A DNA stretch of 35,344 nucleotides. Origin: Acidobacteriota bacterium (GTDB taxonomy: Bacteria; Acidobacteriota; Terriglobia; 20CM-2-55-15). The translations under genes and the position numbers were made by a program. The notes under the pieces are model-generated. The model saw only the letters and a program-made list of their open reading frames with translations, ran no database searches and was not told the origin of the DNA. Shown piece by piece: positions 18,629 to 29,808 of the stretch (positions within the stretch are counted from its first letter, which is position 1; each line of letters starts with the position of its first letter). The stretch lies in contig JAJEEE010000088.1 in the NCBI GenBank assembly GCA_022821145.1, positions 1 to 35,344 of the forward strand, given 5' to 3'.

Positions 18629-19399
18629 TCAACGGAATGGCCAGGGCACGAGGCGCGGCGTCGTTCCGACGTAGCGCCTGTAGGCGGGATCGCCGCCCCA
18701 CTTCTCCTCGGCCCGCCGCTCGAGCGGCGGTATGCCGGTTACGCGGAGCAGCAGGAAGGTCAGCGCCAGGGGCCCGGCGACGGTGAGCCATGCCCAACCC
18801 GTGAAGGCGGGAGCGGCATAGGCGAAGATCCCCCACCAGCACAACAGCTCGCCGAAGTAGTTGGGGTGCCGGCTGTACCGCCACAGACCGGTGTCGGTCC
18901 ATCCGCGGCCGGTCCCCGGACGCATCTTGTGACGGAACTTCTGGATATCGGCGACGGTCTCGATCGTCCATCCGGCCGCCCACACCGCGGCCGCCGCCGC
19001 CATGGTCCAGCGCCATCCCCCGGGATTCGCGAACCATGCCGTCACCGGCAGCATGATCACCCAGACCGCCACGCCCTGGAAGAACCAGAACCGCGCGAAC
19101 TTCAGGAAGTCCTCGCGGATCCCGTCGAAGCGCGTGTCGCGGCCGATGCGCGCGATCCTGTAGACGAGATACGCCGCGAGCCGTACGCCCCACAACACCA
19201 CCATCGCCGCCATCGCCGCCTGGGCGGGATCCCGGGGATCGTTTCGAATCAGAAAGAGCAGCGCCAGGACCACGAACGTCAAGCCGTAGGAAAGGTCGGT
19301 GACCTTGTCGGTCCGGAGAGACGCCGCGAACGTGAAGAACACGGCCTGAATCGCCAGGCTGATCCCGAGCGCTCCGACGACGTGGACGGCGTCGTTCAT
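18629..19399 (-). CDS. DUF1295 membrane protein (steroid 5-alpha-reductase-like fold)
   Basis: 256 residues, six or seven hydrophobic segments. The signature 'TGLWRYSRHPNYFGELLCWWGIF' (read as 'WRYSRHPNYFGE') is that of DUF1295/isoprenylcysteine methyltransferase-like and steroid 5-alpha-reductase-like membrane enzymes, with 'VTGIPPLERRAEEKWG' and 'PRLVPWPF' at the C-terminus. Family members act on lipid or steroid substrates using NADPH or SAM; the exact reaction is unknown. It is the last gene of the B12-regulator operon, 7 bp after the small membrane protein. DUF1295 genes are known companions of LitR-linked lipid genes, which supports a role in membrane-lipid change. Confidence 0.88.
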   Translation of the reverse strand: MNDAVHVVGALGISLAIQAVFFTFAASLRTDKVTDLSYGLTFVVLALLFLIRNDPRDPAQAAMAAMVVLWGVRLAAYLVYRIARIGRDTRFDGIREDFLKFARFWFFQGVAVWVIMLPVTAWFANPGGWRWTMAAAAAVWAAGWTIETVADIQKFRHKMRPGTGRGWTDTGLWRYSRHPNYFGELLCWWGIFAYAAPAFTGWAWLTVAGPLALTFLLLRVTGIPPLERRAEEKWGGDPAYRRYVGTTPRLVPWPFR

Positions 19400-19406
19400 T
19401 TCGGCG

Positions 19407-19676
19407 TCACCCGCCTCCGGACAGCCCGAGGATCAGGACCAGCAGCGCGAAGTAGATCACGAGATAGATCCGGTAACGTCGCGCCATCCGGCGCTCTCCG
19501 TCGCTCGTGAAGTAGCGGTTCGAGAACAAGGCCGCCAGGTCGCGTCCGAACCACGGCAGCACGTTGATCGTCCATCGGTCGGTCCGGTAGATCGTGGCGC
19601 GCCAGCGATACCGCATTCGCCACAGCGGTATGCCGTAGGCCAGGAAGATGACGATCAGCACGGTTCTCGGACTCAC
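19407..19676 (-). CDS. Small two-helix membrane protein of unknown function
   Basis: 89 residues starting at a GTG. Two hydrophobic segments (about 5-20 and 68-86) flank a basic, aromatic central part ('WRMRYRWRATIYRTDRW', 'SDGERRMARRYRIY'). I do not recognise the family. It sits between the B12-binding regulator (9 bp gap) and the DUF1295 gene (7 bp gap), so it is cotranscribed with the lipid-modifying genes and likely acts in the inner membrane with them. The tight spacing on both sides and the clean membrane pattern argue that it is real. Confidence 0.65.
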   Translation of the reverse strand: MSPRTVLIVIFLAYGIPLWRMRYRWRATIYRTDRWTINVLPWFGRDLAALFSNRYFTSDGERRMARRYRIYLVIYFALLVLILGLSGGG

Positions 19677-19685
19677 CGTTCGCGT

Positions 19686-20633
19686 TCACGACGACGGCCC
19701 GCCCGGCCGCGTCCGTATTTCCGCCGCGATCGCGAGCGCGGTCTCCGGCGCCGACCGGCCGGGATGAATCAGTCGCAACCGTTCGGGATCGGACCGGCCC
19801 CGGGCGGACGGAACCCCCTGTCCCCCGACGAAGAACCGCATCGTCGGCGCGGCGCCCTCGACCAGCGCTCGAAGCCCGGCCCGTTGCTTCCGGTAGACGC
19901 TCGGGACCGTCACCGACAGGAGCACGGCGTCGGGCGCGGTCACCGAGCAGGCGTGACGGCACGCCTCCAGCGGCAGGTTGCATCCCAGATACAGCACGCG
20001 CACGCCCACCCGGCTCACGAAATAGGAAATCATCAGAATGCCCAGCTCGTGGTCCTCGCCCGGAAGGCAGGCCGCGATCACGACCGGGCGCGGCGTGCGG
20101 GGCTCGGCGGACTCGATGAGCTTGACGACCCGTTGCCTGAAGACCGACGTGATGAGGTGTTCCGCCGCCACCGAACAGGCGCCCATCTCCCATAGACGGC
20201 CGATCTCGTGGGCCACGGGCTCGATCACCTGCTCGACGACCATCTCCGGGGACGAGGCCGCGGCCATGGCGTCCAACCCTCGGTCGATGCGGCCCGAATC
20301 CAGCGCGAGGGCCGCCTCGACCAGCTCCGTCCGGACCGTCTCCAAGAGCGGCGCCTCCTGTCCGGCCTCCGGGGTCCGGGCCTTCTCACGCGCGTCTCCG
20401 AGCAGGCGCCGACGCCCGAGGGCCGCGATTTCTCCGATCGCCCGGCCCTCGTCCAACAAGGCGCGGACCCGCTCGAGCACCTTGAGGTCGTCGTCCGTGT
20501 AGTTCCGTTGCCCCCCGGGTCCCCGCCCGGGCTCGAGCAGTCCGAACCGGCGCTCCCACGCGCGCAGTCGCACCGGGGAAAAACCGGTCAGGCGCGCAAT
20601 CGTCCCCATCCTGTACGGTCCGTTCTCGGCCAC
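19686..20633 (-). CDS. litR: CarH/LitR-type B12-dependent photoreceptor transcriptional regulator (MerR family)
   Basis: 315 residues. An N-terminal MerR winged helix ('GTIARLTGFSPVRLRAWERRFGL', about 10-75) is followed by a four-helix bundle and a Rossmann-type cobalamin domain. The bundle has the W-x9-EH signature of CarH light sensors (W148, E158, H159). The cobalamin domain has 'GEDHELG' with the lower-ligand histidine H195, then 'RVLYLGCNLP' and a 'LLSVT' strand. Known CarH/LitR proteins bind adenosylcobalamin in the dark, tetramerise and repress; light breaks the Co-C bond and releases DNA. The GTG at 20633 has GGAGGCGGAG just upstream; an open frame to 20750 overlaps the preceding methyltransferase gene. 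As fifth gene of the operon it probably represses its own promoter at 25099-25131. Confidence 0.92.
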   Translation of the reverse strand: MAENGPYRMGTIARLTGFSPVRLRAWERRFGLLEPGRGPGGQRNYTDDDLKVLERVRALLDEGRAIGEIAALGRRRLLGDAREKARTPEAGQEAPLLETVRTELVEAALALDSGRIDRGLDAMAAASSPEMVVEQVIEPVAHEIGRLWEMGACSVAAEHLITSVFRQRVVKLIESAEPRTPRPVVIAACLPGEDHELGILMISYFVSRVGVRVLYLGCNLPLEACRHACSVTAPDAVLLSVTVPSVYRKQRAGLRALVEGAAPTMRFFVGGQGVPSARGRSDPERLRLIHPGRSAPETALAIAAEIRTRPGGPSS

Positions 20634-20667: not shown

Positions 20668-21735
20668 CTAGCCGCCCACGGTTCGGCGTCGATCGAGCCT
20701 CGACGGCTCGAACAGGTATTGGGCCACGCCCCACTCGGCGCCGCCGTCATAACCCCACATCTCCGAGCAGGCCATGTAGAACAGCCTCCGGCGCCGGAAC
20801 CGGCGGCCGGCCTCGCCCGGCGTGCAGGACCGCGCGAACGTCTCGATCAGCGCCTCCCGGTTGGACGCCATGTTTTCGAGCCAGGCCTCGGCCGTCCGAC
20901 GATAGTGGGTCCCGTCCCACCACCACTGGTCGACCAACGTCACGTCGTCCTGGAACCGCGGCAGCAGATCTCGCGACGGCATGAGCCCGCCGGTGAAGAA
21001 GTTGCGCGCCATCCAGTTCGCCGCGCCCTCGGTCTCGAACGTGTAGGAGTGGCGGCGATGGGCAAAGACGTGGACGAACAGGCGGCCGCCGTCTGCGAGC
21101 CATCCCGCGACCGCTTTCAGCAGCCGGCGGTAGTTCCGCATGTGCTCGAACATCTCCACGGAGAGGATACGGTCGAACCGGTCGGCCGTTTCGAAGTCGT
21201 TCATGTCCGCGGTGATCACGCCGACGTTGTCGAGACCGCGGCGGCGCGCCCGCGCCTCGATGAACGATCGTTGGCCGTCCGAGTTCGACATCGCAGTGAT
21301 TCGCGCGCCGGGATAGGCCTCGGCCATCCACAGCGACAACGCGCCCCAGCCGCACCCCAGGTCCAGAATATTCATGCCGTCGGACACGCCGGCGCGACGG
21401 CACGTTTCCCGAAGCGCGGCGTCTTCGGCTTCCGCCAGGGTCCGGACCGAATCCGGCCAGTAACCGCAACTGTACTTGAGGCGCGGACCGAGCGTGTGGA
21501 CGAACACCTCGGCGGGCACCTCGTAATGCTGGGCCTTGGCCTCGCCGGCGTGGGGCGCGATCGGACCCCGGCTCAGCCGGCGCACCATGGCGTCGACGCC
21601 GTTGCCGGGCCCTTCGGAGCGGACCTGGTCCAGCCGCTGCCGGCACAGCCGGCGGATTCCGCGGCGCACCAACGCCTCGGGCGCCCAGCCCCGCTCGGCC
21701 GCGGTGAGCGCGGCGCCCACGAGGAGATCCCTCAC
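20668..21735 (-). CDS. Cfa-family SAM-dependent methyltransferase (second copy)
   Basis: 355 residues, coclaurine-N-methyltransferase/Cfa-type class I methyltransferase. The AHYEVP (substrate) segment, 'LKYSCGYW' with the conserved Cys, SAM-binding 'ILDLGCGWGALSLWMAE' and 'SVEMFEHMRNY' (E197, acidic bicarbonate/catalytic position) are present, and 'LFVHVFAH' keeps a His at the equivalent bicarbonate site. This group includes fatty-acid and N-methyltransferases. R. palustris FufM, which adds a methyl to furan fatty acids, is one possible comparison that I cannot confirm. The GTG start overlaps the upstream cfa stop (GTGA at 21732-21735), so the pair is translationally coupled; litR follows after 34 bp. 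Confidence 0.88.
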   Translation of the reverse strand: MRDLLVGAALTAAERGWAPEALVRRGIRRLCRQRLDQVRSEGPGNGVDAMVRRLSRGPIAPHAGEAKAQHYEVPAEVFVHTLGPRLKYSCGYWPDSVRTLAEAEDAALRETCRRAGVSDGMNILDLGCGWGALSLWMAEAYPGARITAMSNSDGQRSFIEARARRRGLDNVGVITADMNDFETADRFDRILSVEMFEHMRNYRRLLKAVAGWLADGGRLFVHVFAHRRHSYTFETEGAANWMARNFFTGGLMPSRDLLPRFQDDVTLVDQWWWDGTHYRRTAEAWLENMASNREALIETFARSCTPGEAGRRFRRRRLFYMACSEMWGYDGGAEWGVAQYLFEPSRLDRRRTVGG

Positions 21736-23045
21736 CGCCGCTCCCCGACGAGGCGCTCCCCGGCGGCGGCCTCCCCACCGATGTGGCCGAGCATGGAAGG
21801 GTGCCGTTGTTGGGAACGGCCCAGCAGCAACTGAACGTCTCCGACGATTCGTTCCTCGAAACCCGCTTCGCAGTAGCACAGGTAGTACCGCCACAGCCGG
21901 ATGAAGCGTTCATCGAAGCCGAGGGCCCGCGCGCGGCCCGCGTTCTCGAGGAAACGCCGGCGCCAGCGCCGCAGGGTGCTCGCGTAGTGGGGACCGATGT
22001 CCTCGAGGTGGAGGATGCTGAAATCCGTCGTTCGCGCGAGCGCCCGCGATATCCGGCCCAGCGACGTCAGGCAGCTCCCCGGAAAGATATAGCGGCGGAT
22101 CACGTCCACCGAACGGCGCGAGCTCTCGTACCGGTATTCGGGTGTGACGATCGCCTGCAACAGCATCAGGCCGTCCGGCTTCAACAGGCGCGCGCACTGC
22201 TGGAAGTACGTGTCCACGTACCGGTGCCCCACGGCCTCGATCATCTCCACCGAGGCCAGCTTGTCGTAACGGCCGTCCAGATCCCGATAGTCACTGAGCA
22301 GGATCTCGACGCGGCCGTCGAGGCCGGCTTCCCGGACACGCCGCGTCGCATACGCGTGCTGCTCGTTCGATATCGTCGCCGCGGTGACCCGGCAGCCGTA
22401 TTCGCGCGCGGCGTGAATGGCCAGCCCGCCCCAACCCGCGCCGATGTCGAGCAGATGGTCCGACTCGCCGAGCCGGAGCTTTCGGCAGACGCGCTCCATC
22501 TTGGCCACGGAGGCGTCCTCCATCGTCTGCGCCGGATGCTGGAAGATCCCCGCGGAATAGTTCATCGTCGGATCCAGAAACAGCTCGAAGAAGTCGTTGC
22601 CGAGATCGTAGTGGGCGTGGATGTTGCGGACGCTGCCCCGGGGCGTGTTCGCGCGCATCGCGTGCAGCGCCCGGGCCGGCAGCGAACGGAGGGCGGCCCA
22701 TCCCCGATCCATCGAATCGGCCAACTGAAGGTTGCGCGCGAGCAGGCGCAGGGTCGCCGTGAGGTCGTCCGCCGACCATCCGCCGTCCATGAACGACTCG
22801 GCGGCGCCCAGTCCGCCGCCGAAGAGCACGCGGCGGTAGAAGTCCGCGCCGTGAACCTCGACGCGCGCCGCCGGCGCATGGCCCGTCCCCAGCTCGACGG
22901 TCGCCGTCCGGTCCGCAAGCGTCAACCGGCCCGCGCGCATCCGGCCGAGTCGTCCCAGGACCCGGCGGCGGGCAAGCTGCTCCAGAGGGGACGCGCCGGT
23001 CGCCGGGCCGAGCGTCCGGACGCCGCCCGTCGATGCGTCGTTCAC
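21732..23045 (-). CDS. cfa: Cyclopropane-fatty-acyl-phospholipid synthase-family enzyme (first copy)
   Basis: 437 residues. An N-terminal lipid-binding domain precedes the SAM domain ('[15 protein letters not shown]', '[16 protein letters not shown]'). The active-site acid is E270 ('EMIEAVGH'). Compared with E. coli Cfa, the bicarbonate-site His is Gln here (Q297 in 'LLQAI', 27 residues after E270, as in E. coli 239 to 266). The Cys of 'YSCAYW' is replaced ('YSAGIF', A165). The late Cys of '[10 protein letters not shown]' is kept. It transfers a methylene or methyl to phospholipid-bound unsaturated chains at the membrane; the changed residues hint at methylation rather than plain cyclopropanation. 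The GTG overlaps the DUF1365 stop (GTGA at 23042-23045). Confidence 0.9.
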
Positions 23046-23812
23046 GGCGTCGAGCCCCCGGCGGTCTTCCGGTACCGGGGATGCGGATGGAACGGCGCGC
23101 GCTTCATCCAGAGCCGGAACGCCTGCCAATAGATGCCCGCCAGCACCTTCAGCGTGACGAAGGGGTAGGAAACCAGTACGCGCGTCAGCGACGCGGTCGA
23201 GATCGGGACCCGCTCCAGCGTCAGGCGCGCGTCGAAGATGGGCTCGCCCGCGCTCCAGTTCTCCATGCAGACGTCGAGCCGGCGTCCCGGAACGCCGAAC
23301 CGCCAGCGGTATTCCAGGTCCATGCCCATGAACGGCGAAACATGGAAACGCTTCCGGAAGCGATGCCGCCGGTCCGCAGCCCCGTCGTCGCGGACGTCCA
23401 CGACATAGCAGAACCGTTCGTCCCACGGCGTGTTGTTGATCTCGGCCACGACGAACTCCAGCCGCGACCCGCACGGGGCGAAACAGTAGTAGAAGCTGAC
23501 CGGGTTCATGCAATACCCGAAGTAGCGCAAGTGCGTCAGCAGCCGAATCGGACCCCGGGGACGGATCCCGCACTCCGACTCGACCCGGTCGCGCACCGAC
23601 TCGGCCAGGGGCGTTCCGGGATCTCCGAGATGATCGGAACGCCGGAACCGGGCCGGCGCGGCGCGGCGCGCGGACCACAGCCAGCGACCGCGGAACACGC
23701 GGTCCAACTCGTCGAGATCGAGATACATCTGGAAGAAGCGGTACCGGAACGCGTGCCGAACGGGGCGTCTGCGGACGTGGCGGACCGCGCCTTCGTAGAT
23801 GCAACTGTTCAC
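23042..23812 (-). CDS. DUF1365-family protein
   Basis: 256 residues, recognised from '[22 protein letters not shown]' (start), '[18 protein letters not shown]' and '[15 protein letters not shown]', all typical of DUF1365. The function is unknown, but the family almost always neighbours an FAD amine-oxidase-type gene and a cfa gene, as here. The GTG at 23812 overlaps the upstream stop (GTGA at 23809-23812), and a GGAGG lies a few bases before it. The frame is open far upstream but there it is antisense or shifted relative to the FAD enzyme. Confidence 0.9.
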
Positions 23813-25059
23813 GCCGCCCGCCTCCGGCCGAGCGCCTCGGCCACGGCCATGCCCGAGCGCACGCCGTCCTCGTGAAACCCGTAACCCCAGTACGCGCCGC
23901 AGAACGATGTCCGGCGCGCGTCCACCAACTCGGCGTGCCGGGCCTGCGCCGCCGACCGCCCCGGCGTGAACACCGGGTGAGTGAAGCGGAACCGCGCGAT
24001 CACCTTCTCGCTGGACACGCCGTCCGCGTCGTTGAGCGTGACGATGAAGACGCGCGGGCCGTCCAGACCCTGCAGGCGGCTCATGTTGTAGGAGACGCGC
24101 ACCGCGGCGGGGTCGAACGCGGGAACGTGGCAGTTCCACGAGGCCCAAGCGCGGCGCCGGCGGGGGAGCACCCGCGTGTCGGTGTGCAGGACGGCGTCGT
24201 TGGGCTGGTACGGGAACGCCGACAGCACCTCGGCCTCCGACGGGTGCGGGTCCGCCAGAAGCCCGAGCGCCTGATCGGCGTGACAGGCCAGGACGACGTG
24301 ATCGAACCGCTCCCGGCGCCCCGCGGCGTCCCATACGTCGACGCGGTCGGCGAAGCGGCGAATCCGGACGGCGCGCCGCCCGGTGCGGATACGGTCCCGG
24401 AACCCGGCCGTCATCGCCTCGACGTAACGCCGCGACCCGCCCTCGACGACGCGCCAGACCGGCTGCCCGCGTACCTGCAGCATGTGGTGGTTGCCCAGGA
24501 AGTCGACGACGAAACGTATCGGGAAGCTCCGAAACGTTCCCGGCGGACAGGACCACAGAGCCGCGCCCAGGGGCGCGAGGTAGTGATCGAGGAACTCGCG
24601 CCCGAATCCGCGGCCCTGGACGTAGTCGGCGACCGTGGTCTCGTCGCCGCGCACGCCGTCCAGCGCCGGCGCTTCCCTGTGGAACCGCAGGATGTCCATC
24701 CACATCCGGTGAAAACGCGGCCGCAACACGTTCCGCCGCTGCGCGAAGAACGCGCCCAGGGACGCGCTGGCGTACTCCAGGCCGCTGGGATCGTGCCGGA
24801 CGCTGAAGCTCATGGTCGTGGGGCGGGATGGGACGCCCAGATCCGCCAGCAGGCGCGCGAAGCGGGGATAGTGCGTCTCGTTGAAGACGACGAAACCCGT
24901 GTCCACGTGGTAGACGCGCCCGTCCATGGCGACGCGGACGGTACGCGCGTGCCCGCCCGTCCTCGTTGCCGATTCCAGGACGGTGACCGCGTGCCGGGGG
25001 TGGAGGTGGTAGGCGGCCGTGAGACCGGAAATTCCCGAACCGACGATGGCGATCTTCAT
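23809..25059 (-). CDS. FAD-dependent amine-oxidase-type oxidoreductase (lipid-modification operon)
   Basis: 416 residues from the ATG at 25059. A Rossmann dinucleotide fold opens the protein ('[17 protein letters not shown]', then 'GGHARTV'); the amine-oxidase/desaturase signature continues with '[16 protein letters not shown]'. This FAD group is related to phytoene-desaturase-like enzymes and is the regular first gene of DUF1365-cfa-litR clusters. In Rhodobacter sphaeroides, furan fatty acid genes of this type are reported (UfaD desaturase, UfaO); which role applies here cannot be read. A GTG at 25083 is also in frame, but GAGGA lies 9 nt before the ATG. It is the first gene after the operator. 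Confidence 0.9.
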
Positions 25060-25098
25060 GGTCCGTCGTCCTCGCGCGCACACCGGAACAACGGAACG

Positions 25099-25131
25099 AA
25101 TGTATAACTATTGTCTATATATTGTCAATGT
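25099..25131 (-). promoter_or_regulatory. CarH/LitR-type operator: three tandem 11-bp direct repeats over a sigma70 promoter
   Basis: On the minus strand ACATTGACAAT (25131-25121), ATATAGACAAT (25120-25110) and AGTTATACATT (25109-25099) lie end to end without spacing. Common pattern is A-n-W-T-n-K-A-C-A-W-T. The first repeat holds TTGACA (-35, 25128-25123) and the third TATACA (-10, 25106-25101), with a 16 bp spacer. Known CarH tetramers place MerR domains on 11-bp direct repeats covering the -35. It is about 40 bp upstream of the first operon gene. Confidence 0.75.
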
Positions 25132-25164
25132 ATGAACGCGGTTCGGACACGGAGGTTGGGGCGC

Positions 25165-28100
25165 CTACCTCTGCCAATCGTCCGGCGTCGGGAGGCCGCG
25201 GCTGGTCAGCACTTCGACGTTCGCGTCCGCCGGCGCCGCAGGCGCCTCGCCGGGAAGGCCCTCGTCCGGCAGGTCGCGCAGGATGCCGCGGATCTGCCCA
25301 GACTGCGGATCGCGCAGGATCGTCACCGGGCGGTCGGTTTCCCCGTCCAGCGTCACCGAGCCGCCCGGTCCGGTCAGCGTGACTCCGGCCAGCACCTCGG
25401 CCCATCCCGGCCCGACGGGGACCGTGAAGGCGAACGACGACCGCCCGTCACCATCGCCCACCACCGGCATCGCAAAATCCAGCGTGAACAGCTCCGCACC
25501 GGCAGCCGTTGCGCCCGAGATCCGGTAATCGCCTACGGCGTCCGGCAGCGACGCCGGAGCGTCGACGACGAAGACCGGCTCCAGGAACGGCGCGCCGTCG
25601 GCGTCCACGCCGCCCCACAGCAGCAGCGAACGCCCGGACGCGGCGGTTTGCGAGGAGCGGCCCCCTCCGGGAGTCTCGTTCTGGAGGCGGAAACGGAACG
25701 CGTTGGTGAAGCCGAAGTCGCCGATCCACTGAGGCTGGCAGTAGGACATCAGGTCCCGGTGGGTCGGCGGAACCAGGCGGCCGTTCCCTCGGAAATCGTA
25801 TCCCCAGGCGCCGATGGTTCCGTTGGCCTGCGGAAAGGACGGGTCCGGATTGTCGGGGCGGCCGCACGGGGCGTGCCGAAGGCCCAGGTTGTGCCCGAGC
25901 TCGTGAGCGATCGTCGAGGCGACGGGACGCGCGAAACTCGTCGCGCCCTCGATCCAGGCGACGCCCGCCGCCCCGCCGCCGGCGACCACCGCCGACATCG
26001 TCCCCATGTAGTAGCCGCGCCCGCCCTCCATGAGGCGGATCAGCCCCGTCTCGGCCAGCAGGCGGTGGGGATCGTTGGTCGACACCATCACGGACTCGTG
26101 AGCCGTCACGGCCAGGTCGTGGATCGGCAGCAGCGTGCGGGTATCCTTGAAGAGCCCGTGACCTTCCGGGTCGGCGGCCATGGCGTTCACCAGCGTCTCG
26201 ATCGAGGCGTCCGGCTGGGTGCGCCAGATGAACGGGATCATCGTCAGGTCGAAGACGGGCATCGCTCGGACGTCGATCGGCAACCGGCCCGTCTCCGGTA
26301 TCCGGTCCGCGATGTCCACCCCCGATGGCAGCGTCCCGTCGGGGTCGATTTCCACCACGATCTCCAGCCCCGGCTGGATCACCTCCGCCGGAACCGTGGC
26401 GTTGGCCGACGCCGCCAACGACCCCTCGTTCACCTCGGCCGGAATGGCCGCCGTGCCGGCGGGGATGTCCGCGACATGCGTCTCCTGGTCGTCCAGGAAG
26501 AACCGGGCCCGGACGGGGGGGATCGTCGCGGCGGGCGCGCCGGGCGCCGTGACGAAAACGCGCAGCAGGGCCTCTTCGTTCGCGACCAGCGGCACCGGGT
26601 ACCGCCGGGACTGCACGGCCTGGGTGAGATACGCGGCCACGGCCTCGGCGCCGCACGGCTGGACGCGCCGCTTCCATATGCCGTCGAGCCACGTCTGGAA
26701 CGCGTCGTCGGACGGCGCGCAGAGGTCCGTCGCGTTGGCCAGCAGCTCGTCGAGCCGACGGAGCCGGGTCAGGGCCGAGGGCAATTCCCCCGTCAATTGC
26801 GCGTTCCCCGAAAAGGACAGCGACGACAGGTTCACCAGTCCCCCGAGCTCGGGCGGCACCGCGCCCGCCAGGTCGTTGCCGTCGAAGGCCAACTCCCTCA
26901 GACGAAACAGGCGCGCCAACTCCGGGGGGATCGGCCCGGTCAGATCGTTCGTATGAAGTCGAAGCTGGAAAAGGTTGATCAGCGATCCGATCTCCGGGGG
27001 GATCGGTCCCGCCAAACCGTTCTCGTGCAACCACAGGAATCGCAGGAGCCTCAGGTTCCCCAACTCGACCGGGATCGGCCCGGTCAACCGGTTTTCGCTC
27101 AGCAACAGGTCCGTCAGGCGCGTCAGGCGCCCCAACTCCACCGGAATGGCGCCGGTCAACGCGTTCTCGAAAAGGACCAGTTCCTCGAGGTTCGTCAGGT
27201 TGCCGAGTTCGAGCGGTATCGTCCCGGACAGCCGGTTTCGGTGCAGATACAGATCCTCGAGGTCCGTCAGATTGCCCAGCCCGGGCGGGATCGACCCGGT
27301 CAGCATGTTGTCGAAGAGCACCAGTTGCCGCAGGCCCGTCAAGCGGCCCATTTCGGCGGGAACGGATCCGGTCAGCCGGTTCTCGGAGAGGGCCATGATC
27401 TCCAGGTTCGCCAGGTTGCCCAGCTCCGCGGGGATTGCCCCGGTCAAACGGTTGTCTTCGAGACGCAGGACTTCCAGGCCGGTCAGGTTGCCCAACTCGG
27501 GCGGGATCCTCCCGACCAGGCTGTTTTCGAAAAGCGTGAGGATCTCGAGGTCCGACAGTTGCCCCAGCTCGGCCGGGATCGTCCCCGACAGGTTGTTTTC
27601 CTCGATCCGCAACAGCTCCAGGTTCGTCAGGCCGCCCAGCTCCTCGGGAATCCGCCCGGTCAGATCGTTGTCGTGGAGCCACAGCCGTTCGAGCCGCGTC
27701 AGATTGCCGAACTCGGGCGGTATCGGCCCCGTCAGCCGGTTGCCGTGCAGGCTGAGGTCGACCAGCTTCGTCAGGTCGCCCAACTCGGGGGGGATCGTCC
27801 CGGTCAGCGCGTTCTCCCGCATCCAGAGTTCTTCGAGCTGGACCAGGCCGCCCAGCTCGGGCGGAATCGTTCCCGTCAGATCGTTCTGGTCGAGATCCAG
27901 CGCGGTCAGGTGCGTCAAGCGGCCCAACTCCGGTGGAATCGTCCCGGTCAGATCGTTGTTCCAGAGCCTCAACTCGCGGAGTTCGGTCAGCTCGGCCAGT
28001 TCGACCGGGATCGGCCCCGTCAGATCGTTCTGGTCGAAGTCCAGGACCCGCAGGTGGGTGAGAGACGACAGCTCCGGGGGAATCGGCCCCGTCATTCCGA

Positions 28101-29808
28101 TCCCGACTTTCCGCGGAGTACCATCAGCATCGTTGACCCAGCGGAACATGCGCAATCCGGTCACCTGCCCCTGCCCATCGACCTCGACCCCGTACCAGTC
28201 GCCAACGGGCGCCGCCGTGCCCCAGTTCGTGTTGACGGTCCAGCCCGCGCCGTTCGTCGATTCGAACAGCGTCGTCAGAACGCCGCGCGCGCCAACGGGC
28301 GTCGTCCGGACCGGAGCGTCGAGCAGGGCCGGAGGCAAGGTGTTGAAGGTGACGATGCTCTCGTCCGCGTTCAGTTCGAAATGCAGGCCGATCGCGGCGA
28401 CCGTCCGATCGCACGACACCGTGGCAGCCCCCCCCTGGAACGACGCGGGAATCGGGACGACCGTGTTGAGCAAACGCGCCAGGTTGGTCTTCGACGGCAC
28501 GGAAAGCTCGGCCTCGGCCAGCTTCGTCCGCTGCATGTCTTCCAGCTCGATGCGGCAGTCCGCGTCGTCCGCCGTGTCGTTGGCGATCGCGAACCCGACC
28601 GTGCCGGCCGGCGTCAGGACCGGAAGCTGAAAATAATCACCGTCCTGCGAGCTGAAGACCGTGGCCATTCCCGTCGGCCGCCCCCCCTCGCCGACCCACG
28701 CGAACACGACCTGCGCCGTGACAGGGGCCGTGCAGTCCAGGATCGCGTACCCGGACGCCGTCTCCGGCGCGTTCCGCGTGGGCCACACCCGGTAGGCGCC
28801 CGGCCCATCCAGGTCGAACGTGGCGCTGGAACCGGAAATCGTGACGCCGTCCGCCTCCTGGAACCGGTCCGCCGCCAGGCCGCGCAGCGTCAGCATGCAC
28901 CGGCTCGCCGAGGAAGCGACGTTGGTGACGATCAGGCTGGATTGCCACCCGCCCCCGTCGGCGATGTGCGGCAGGACGTGCGACGGCTTCGCCGCCGCGT
29001 CCGTCCCCGGCATGGACGGATCGACCAGCGTCGGCGGCAGCGTGTTGAACGTGATGATGCTCTCGTCCGGGTTCAGTTCGAAGTGCAGGCCGATCATGGC
29101 GACGTCCCGGTCGCAGGAGACCGTCGCCGACCCTCCCGTGAACCCGTCGGGAATCGAAACGATCTTGTGGAGCAACTCGGCCCGGTTGGACTTCGAGCGC
29201 ACCTCGATCGTATCGTCGTCCAGGTCCGCCCGTCGCGGATCCTGCAGGACGATGTCGCACTCCGCGTCGTAGACGGTATCGTTCGCGATCGCGAACCCCA
29301 GCGTACCCGCCGCGGTCAGGACGGGAAACTGGAAGTCCCGGCCGGTCTGGGAACTGAACACCGTGGCGATGCCCGTCGGACGATCCCCCTCTTCGATCCA
29401 CTGGAAGACGACTTGCGCCGTGACCGGAGCGTTGCAATCGAGCGTGGCGTATCCGGACCCATCGGCCATCTCGTTCCGGGTGCGCCACACCAGGGAGTCG
29501 CCGTGGCCGTCCAGCCTGAACGTCGCCTCCGAACCCGACGCCGACACTGCGTCGGCGGATTCGAACCGGTCCGCGGTCAGGCCGTACAGTTCGACCGTGC
29601 AGAAGCTCGCCGACTGCGCGGCGTTCGTGACCAGGAGCAGGGACTGCCACCCGCCGCCGTCGGCCAGGTGGGGCAGAACGTGCGCCCGTCTCGCCGCCTC
29701 GTCCGATTGACCAGGGGCCGGCAGCGCGCAGGCGGCGGCCGCGAGCAGGACCCACGACAGCCGTCCCCGCCGAGGCCGGCGTCCCATTGTCTGCAGATGT
29801 CGCACCAC
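25165..29808 (-). CDS. Secreted leucine-rich-repeat metzincin-like metalloprotease
   Basis: 1547 residues with a signal peptide ('LSWVLLAAAACALPAPG', cleavage near 34). Two tandem ~234-residue beta-sandwich modules start at H43 and H277 ('HVLP.H.ADGGGWQS' in both). From T573, eighteen 24-residue plant-type repeats ('L..L..L.L..N.LTG.IP.ELG') and a capping repeat run to about 1030. Beyond lies the catalytic region with the full zincin motif HExxHxxGxxH: H1302, E1303, H1306, G1309, H1312, and a Met-turn 'DLMSYC'. A C-terminal beta region follows. It is presumably an extracellular adhesion/protease; substrate is unknown. An ATG at 29787 is an alternative start. TACACT lies 5 nt before the GTG. 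Confidence 0.88.
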   Translation of the reverse strand: MVRHLQTMGRRPRRGRLSWVLLAAAACALPAPGQSDEAARRAHVLPHLADGGGWQSLLLVTNAAQSASFCTVELYGLTADRFESADAVSASGSEATFRLDGHGDSLVWRTRNEMADGSGYATLDCNAPVTAQVVFQWIEEGDRPTGIATVFSSQTGRDFQFPVLTAAGTLGFAIANDTVYDAECDIVLQDPRRADLDDDTIEVRSKSNRAELLHKIVSIPDGFTGGSATVSCDRDVAMIGLHFELNPDESIITFNTLPPTLVDPSMPGTDAAAKPSHVLPHIADGGGWQSSLIVTNVASSASRCMLTLRGLAADRFQEADGVTISGSSATFDLDGPGAYRVWPTRNAPETASGYAILDCTAPVTAQVVFAWVGEGGRPTGMATVFSSQDGDYFQLPVLTPAGTVGFAIANDTADDADCRIELEDMQRTKLAEAELSVPSKTNLARLLNTVVPIPASFQGGAATVSCDRTVAAIGLHFELNADESIVTFNTLPPALLDAPVRTTPVGARGVLTTLFESTNGAGWTVNTNWGTAAPVGDWYGVEVDGQGQVTGLRMFRWVNDADGTPRKVGIGMTGPIPPELSSLTHLRVLDFDQNDLTGPIPVELAELTELRELRLWNNDLTGTIPPELGRLTHLTALDLDQNDLTGTIPPELGGLVQLEELWMRENALTGTIPPELGDLTKLVDLSLHGNRLTGPIPPEFGNLTRLERLWLHDNDLTGRIPEELGGLTNLELLRIEENNLSGTIPAELGQLSDLEILTLFENSLVGRIPPELGNLTGLEVLRLEDNRLTGAIPAELGNLANLEIMALSENRLTGSVPAEMGRLTGLRQLVLFDNMLTGSIPPGLGNLTDLEDLYLHRNRLSGTIPLELGNLTNLEELVLFENALTGAIPVELGRLTRLTDLLLSENRLTGPIPVELGNLRLLRFLWLHENGLAGPIPPEIGSLINLFQLRLHTNDLTGPIPPELARLFRLRELAFDGNDLAGAVPPELGGLVNLSSLSFSGNAQLTGELPSALTRLRRLDELLANATDLCAPSDDAFQTWLDGIWKRRVQPCGAEAVAAYLTQAVQSRRYPVPLVANEEALLRVFVTAPGAPAATIPPVRARFFLDDQETHVADIPAGTAAIPAEVNEGSLAASANATVPAEVIQPGLEIVVEIDPDGTLPSGVDIADRIPETGRLPIDVRAMPVFDLTMIPFIWRTQPDASIETLVNAMAADPEGHGLFKDTRTLLPIHDLAVTAHESVMVSTNDPHRLLAETGLIRLMEGGRGYYMGTMSAVVAGGGAAGVAWIEGATSFARPVASTIAHELGHNLGLRHAPCGRPDNPDPSFPQANGTIGAWGYDFRGNGRLVPPTHRDLMSYCQPQWIGDFGFTNAFRFRLQNETPGGGRSSQTAASGRSLLLWGGVDADGAPFLEPVFVVDAPASLPDAVGDYRISGATAAGAELFTLDFAMPVVGDGDGRSSFAFTVPVGPGWAEVLAGVTLTGPGGSVTLDGETDRPVTILRDPQSGQIRGILRDLPDEGLPGEAPAAPADANVEVLTSRGLPTPDDWQR

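Follow-up and report, generated by a model that had tools for sequence, protein, structure and literature searches.

CarH is known mainly as a switch of carotenoid genes. The locus described here raises the question of whether a regulator of this family might instead govern a set of lipid enzymes, acting on an operator that fills the promoter of its own operon. The window, i.e., the whole stretch of 35,344 nucleotides analysed from an Acidobacteriota genome, contains on the minus strand, read from 25131 to 25099, the sequence ACATTGACAAT ATATAGACAAT AGTTATACATT, a gapless run of three 11-mers:

25121 to 25131, minus strand: direct repeat 1, ACATTGACAAT, which holds the -35 TTGACA (25123-25128) and fits nAnnTnnACAn
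25110 to 25120, minus strand: direct repeat 2, ATATAGACAAT, within the promoter spacer
25099 to 25109, minus strand: direct repeat 3, AGTTATACATT, which holds the -10, either TATACA (25101-25106) or TACATT (25099-25104)

Published CarH operators consist of three or four tandem repeats that overlap the promoter, with the repeat nAnnTnnACAn. All three copies in the window fit this direct-repeat consensus and share AnnTnnACA in one register, giving an uninterrupted tandem of three 11-bp repeats with TnnACA. The -35 TTGACA and the -10 TATACA lie 22 bp apart, start to start, with a 16-bp spacer, and elements so spaced naturally come to lie on alternate repeats. An earlier note on this DNA had placed them in the first and third copies, 22 bp apart, and this placement holds. 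TATACA is non-consensus in that it does not end in the T typical of a -10, and a promoter scanner favours TACATT with an 18-bp spacer. Either -10 hexamer is located inside repeat 3, so that the array spans the -35, the spacer and the -10. The earlier note had considered the extension into the -10 notable. As a novelty it had to be discarded, since repeats overlapping the -10 are already in print for Bacillus megaterium CarH and for Haliangium.

The predicted housekeeping promoter, with which the repeats overlap, is positioned about 40 bp upstream of the ATG (25059). The long upstream open reading frame is co-directional and terminates at 25165, and the promoter therefore serves only the operon beginning at this ATG. 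The upstream frame itself (25165-29808, minus strand, up to 1547 aa) carries the metzincin-type motif HELGHNLGLRH and probably encodes a secreted zinc metalloprotease; a second stretch of this metzincin-type frame, 78% identical, is present in the sister genome G001 (L230).

Downstream of the promoter, six to seven genes, most of which overlap or almost touch, form an operon with its own carH as the fifth gene:

23809 to 25059, minus strand: first gene, FAD-dependent amine-oxidase/desaturase-like protein of 416 aa, candidate UfaD by its domain matches and the description of UfaD
23042 to 23812, minus strand: DUF1365 protein of 256 aa (PF07103, E 1.2e-84), candidate UfaO, a protein that carries DUF1365
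21732 to 23045, minus strand: CMAS/CFA-family SAM methyltransferase 1, GTG start (PF02353, E 1.8e-84), candidate UfaM
20668 to 21735, minus strand: CMAS-family methyltransferase 2, with a GTG start overlapping the preceding stop (PF02353, E 1.4e-40)
19686 to 20633, minus strand: CarH/LitR-family regulator of 315 aa with MerR DNA-binding and B12-binding domains, W-x9-EH and ExHxxG
18629 to 19399, minus strand: DUF1295 membrane protein (PF06966, E 1e-61), probable final gene of the operon

A small open reading frame of about 90 aa with membrane-like sequence, below the size limit of the frame scan, lies between carH and the DUF1295 gene (about 19400-19690, minus strand).

The operon encodes an FAD-binding desaturase-like protein, a DUF1365 protein and a CMAS methyltransferase together, as does the ufaD-ufaO-ufaM operon of furan fatty acid synthesis. 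UfaD, a relative of phytoene desaturases, is an NAD-FAD-binding desaturase, UfaO of Rhodobacter sphaeroides builds the furan ring and carries DUF1365, and UfaM methylates fatty acyl chains in a SAM-dependent manner. The three genes are RPA2571-2570-2569 in R. palustris, while in R. sphaeroides ufaD-ufaO (RSP1091-1090) belong to the operon RSP1091-1087, which is controlled by RpoE-ChrR and needed for singlet oxygen resistance. Judged by domains and gene order, the FAD oxidoreductase, the DUF1365 protein and the CFA-like methyltransferase most likely correspond to this pathway, and we regard the operon as a candidate furan fatty acid operon. The description as a membrane lipid operon in the earlier note was right as to lipid enzymes and too broad as to their probable product. 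An ordinary cyclopropane operon was also considered and set aside: both CMAS proteins score below the NCBIfam cut-offs for true CFA synthases, and DUF1365 is the domain of UfaO.

The regulator shows the CarH/LitR domain order, with a MerR-type DNA-binding domain (PF13411) followed by B12-binding_2 (PF02607) and B12-binding (PF02310). Thermus CarH (5c8d) matches it with an E-value of 6e-31 over the DNA- and B12-binding domains, and the W, the EH and the cobalt-ligand His are aligned. The family motifs W-x9-EH (WEMGACSVAAEH) and ExHxxG (EDHELG) are both present. The earlier claim of a CarH-like protein with W-x9-EH and a B12-ligand His in the operon is thus confirmed by the motifs and the Thermus match. 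Its numbering, W148/E158/H159/H195, is correct for the GTG start at 20633; counted from the Met at 20609, the same residues are W140/E150/H151/H187. The best named model is the NCBIfam CarH model NF052513 (E 4.5e-42), with a score of 144 bits against an equivalog cut-off of 400, and identity to the aligned relatives amounts to just 25-29% over the full length. By these sequence measures the protein is a divergent member of the CarH family and not an equivalog of the Thermus type.

One residue bears directly on the response to light. In Thermus, His132 coordinates cobalt after photolysis, tetramer dissociation in light has been reported to depend on it, and the H132A variant is still mostly tetrameric in light. 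At this position the regulator has a Glu, so that the bis-His upper ligation is missing and its light chemistry may differ from that of Thermus CarH. A regulator that binds a CarH-type operator and is not driven by light, i.e., a sensor of AdoCbl (B12 status) or of oxygen/redox, or a B12-independent protein like Myxococcus xanthus CarA, which has been published to bind the same type of site without B12, would accommodate this substitution. We consider this unlikely, as W-x9-EH and ExHxxG are both intact and 28 of 119 related CarH-like proteins also have Glu at this position, including that of Priestia aryabhattai (L219), a close relative of the light-responsive B. megaterium CarH, which goes to dimers in light. 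The equivalent of His132 is a His in only 40 of these 119 proteins and is absent in the other 79, Priestia included; therefore His132 does not appear to define the CarH/LitR family as a whole, and the bis-His light state would be unable to form in a large part of it. The Glu of the regulator is in this respect as in Priestia CarH. The genome also contains a cob(I)alamin adenosyltransferase gene, which indicates that the host can make AdoCbl and no more than that.

How unusual the array is was determined at several scales. The pattern ANWTNKACAWT is found three times in the window, exactly at these three copies, versus 0.17 expected, and none of 100 shuffles reaches three. As this pattern had been fitted to the repeats themselves, the retest used the literature consensus nAnnTnnACAn / nnnnTnnACAn. 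Three copies of ANNTNNACA at 11-bp spacing occur a single time in the 4,175,354-base genome, at 25099-25131. When up to one mismatch is allowed, three TNNACA cores are found genome-wide at the perfect site and at two one-mismatch sites, compared with one match for a control reading of the pattern. These results, together with the minus-strand sequence and the consensus fit, substantiate the three abutting 11-mers that the earlier note had described, and the sequence supports a CarH-type operator at 25099-25131. The array is unchanged in the near-identical sister genome G001, which at 99% identity carries little weight.

The repeats could also have arisen by chance in an AT-rich sigma-70 promoter: both TTGACA and TATACA satisfy TnnACA, so that promoter hexamers supply two of the three cores, a 16-bp spacer corresponds to two 11-bp periods, and such cores can arise in AT-rich islands of a G+C-rich genome. 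Shuffling the AT-rich 33-mer alone yields the triple in 6 of 20,000 trials, however, and dinucleotide shuffling of the intergenic region 25060-25168 in none of 20,000. The promoter elements moreover leave repeat 2 unexplained, and TATACA deviates from TATAAT precisely where the CarH core requires C and A. Given further that carH lies in the same operon and that, near other carH genes, 11 bp is the only spacing enriched for perfect triples, we judge coincidence to be very improbable.

This spacing preference was seen in carH and ufaD regions from 396 sampled Acidobacteriota genomes together with the top 80 carH loci of GTDB, in which perfect triples were counted over whole loci at spacings of 7-17, the ten spacings other than 11 serving as control. 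Thirty loci with carH and ufa, including the window, contain seven perfect triples at 11 bp versus two over the ten other spacings together. For 94 carH loci without ufa the numbers are 12 and two, and 33 ufa loci without carH in the fetched stretch have none at 11 bp and none at the other spacings. Within the 250 bp upstream of ufaD, matches of at least 10/12 at 11 bp are seen in 18% of carH-linked and 6% of unlinked operons; this contrast is slight, as other genes often precede ufaD, and the whole-locus count was used instead.

The comparison of homologous promoters proposed in the earlier note thus recovered the same 11-mer register near other carH genes. A perfect triple ends about 30 bp before ufaD in an independent Acidobacteriota operon (L135), and triples are found a short way upstream of carH in L039, L051, L054, L167, L184, L205 and L208; in Gammaproteobacteria, L150 and L184 have theirs just ahead of carH. 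In L051, L054 and L205, TTGACA lies in copy 2 and TATAAT follows 16-17 bp on, past the array, such that the array of the window is placed one repeat further downstream. A perfect triple is absent from 25 of the 30 carH-linked ufa loci; therefore either operator design varies among these operons or some of the scanned stretches miss the real promoter. Among relatives of the same class, a carH more than 32% identical to the query is present in the sister species only, which makes footprinting with close orthologues impossible.

Other arrangements were seen in the same collection. Sites before a ufaD-like gene in L120, L134, L137 and L126 are near-palindromic, e.g., GTCAAGT-ATTTGTCATGGACAATA-ACTTGAC; they combine two direct 11-bp repeats with inverted half-sites, of which L120, L134 and L137 have two, and are reminiscent of the M. 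xanthus CarA operator. Four perfect repeats occur in a gammaproteobacterial ufa/carH locus (L185, 4168-4207) and in P. aryabhattai (L219, 9864-9902). Two carH/carA-like genes stand near each other in one locus in Archangium lansinium (L206, 10001-11700) and in L047 and L139.

Of the 396 Acidobacteriota genomes, 55 have carH and 63 have ufaD, and the two co-occur in 29 (odds ratio 10, P 3e-12). The two genes lie within about 10 kb of each other in 12 of these 29, versus approximately 0.1 by chance (P ~3e-21, assuming random placement and ignoring kinship). Linked carH-ufa clusters extend to no fewer than four further phyla: Gammaproteobacteria, Gemmatimonadota, Actinomycetota (Terrabacter) and Verrucomicrobiota (Chthoniobacteraceae).

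Ordinary MerR activators recognize a dyad within an over-long spacer of 19-20 bp. Use of the repeats by another regulator, whether a second activator of the MerR family or a pair of ECF sigma and anti-sigma factors like the RpoE-ChrR system that controls R. sphaeroides ufaD-ufaO, is also very improbable, as this promoter has direct repeats, a 16-18-bp spacer and a good -35, and inspection of the operon's genes revealed no sigma/anti-sigma pair.

We therefore consider it probable that a dark, AdoCbl-dependent CarH repressor sits over the core promoter of its own lipid operon and is released by light. In the dark, AdoCbl-loaded CarH would oligomerise, and each 11-bp repeat would be occupied by a single DNA-binding domain of the MerR type. 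With the -35, the spacer and the -10 covered by CarH, RNA polymerase would be shut out, and carH, being repressed along with the operon, would be autoregulated. Light would split the Co-C bond, the oligomer would dissociate or loosen, and the operon would be transcribed. Its enzymes would most likely produce methylated or furan fatty acids for the membrane, where these would quench photo-oxidative damage.

On a broader scale, we lean on balance towards the view that the furan fatty acid pathway is under direct control of CarH-family B12 photoreceptors in several phyla (Acidobacteriota, Gammaproteobacteria, Gemmatimonadota and others), as an alternative to RpoE-ChrR. The window would then represent a self-contained case with one operator, the repressor lying over -35, spacer and -10. 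If this is correct, light itself, besides the singlet oxygen that it generates, triggers a furan fatty acid membrane defence in many bacteria, and the 33 bp constitute a compact natural green/blue-light promoter with an operator filling the entire core promoter. While CarH repeats overlapping a -10 are already known, furan fatty acids as a target seem to be new: the open-access literature searched yielded no report of CarH/LitR control of furan fatty acids or of such an operon.

The closest structural counterpart is the Thermus thermophilus CarH operator (PDB 5c8d-5c8f), which likewise comprises three abutting direct repeats of 11 bp that contain AnnTnnACA, with the -35 within the array, and is bound by a MerR-B12 protein with W-x9-EH and ExHxxG. 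The window differs in the placement of its array, with the -35 in copy 1 and the -10 in copy 3, in its lipid target in place of carotenoids, and in the exchange of His132 for Glu. B. (Priestia) megaterium CarH shares repeats that overlap the -35 or -10 and a Glu following the sensor Trp (as observed in P. aryabhattai, L219), but has four repeats, or three and a pseudorepeat, and a carotenoid target. In Haliangium and Myxococcus, the CarH/CarA operators also place tandem repeats over the -35, in Haliangium over the -10 as well, whereas perfect repeats are mixed there with degenerate ones and carotenoid genes are controlled. The blue-light response of Vibrio cholerae (ChrR and a MerR-like protein) is similar in that a CFA-type synthase gene is induced by blue light with participation of a MerR-like regulator; its regulators are encoded at other loci and an 11-bp operator is not described there. 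As for the enzymes, R. palustris 2571-2570-2569 encode an FAD-binding desaturase-like protein, a DUF1365 protein and a SAM-dependent fatty acyl methylase in the gene order of the window. R. sphaeroides, in contrast, keeps ufaD and ufaO in RSP1091-1087 under RpoE-ChrR and ufaM elsewhere, whereas the set in the window adjoins carH behind a CarH-type operator.
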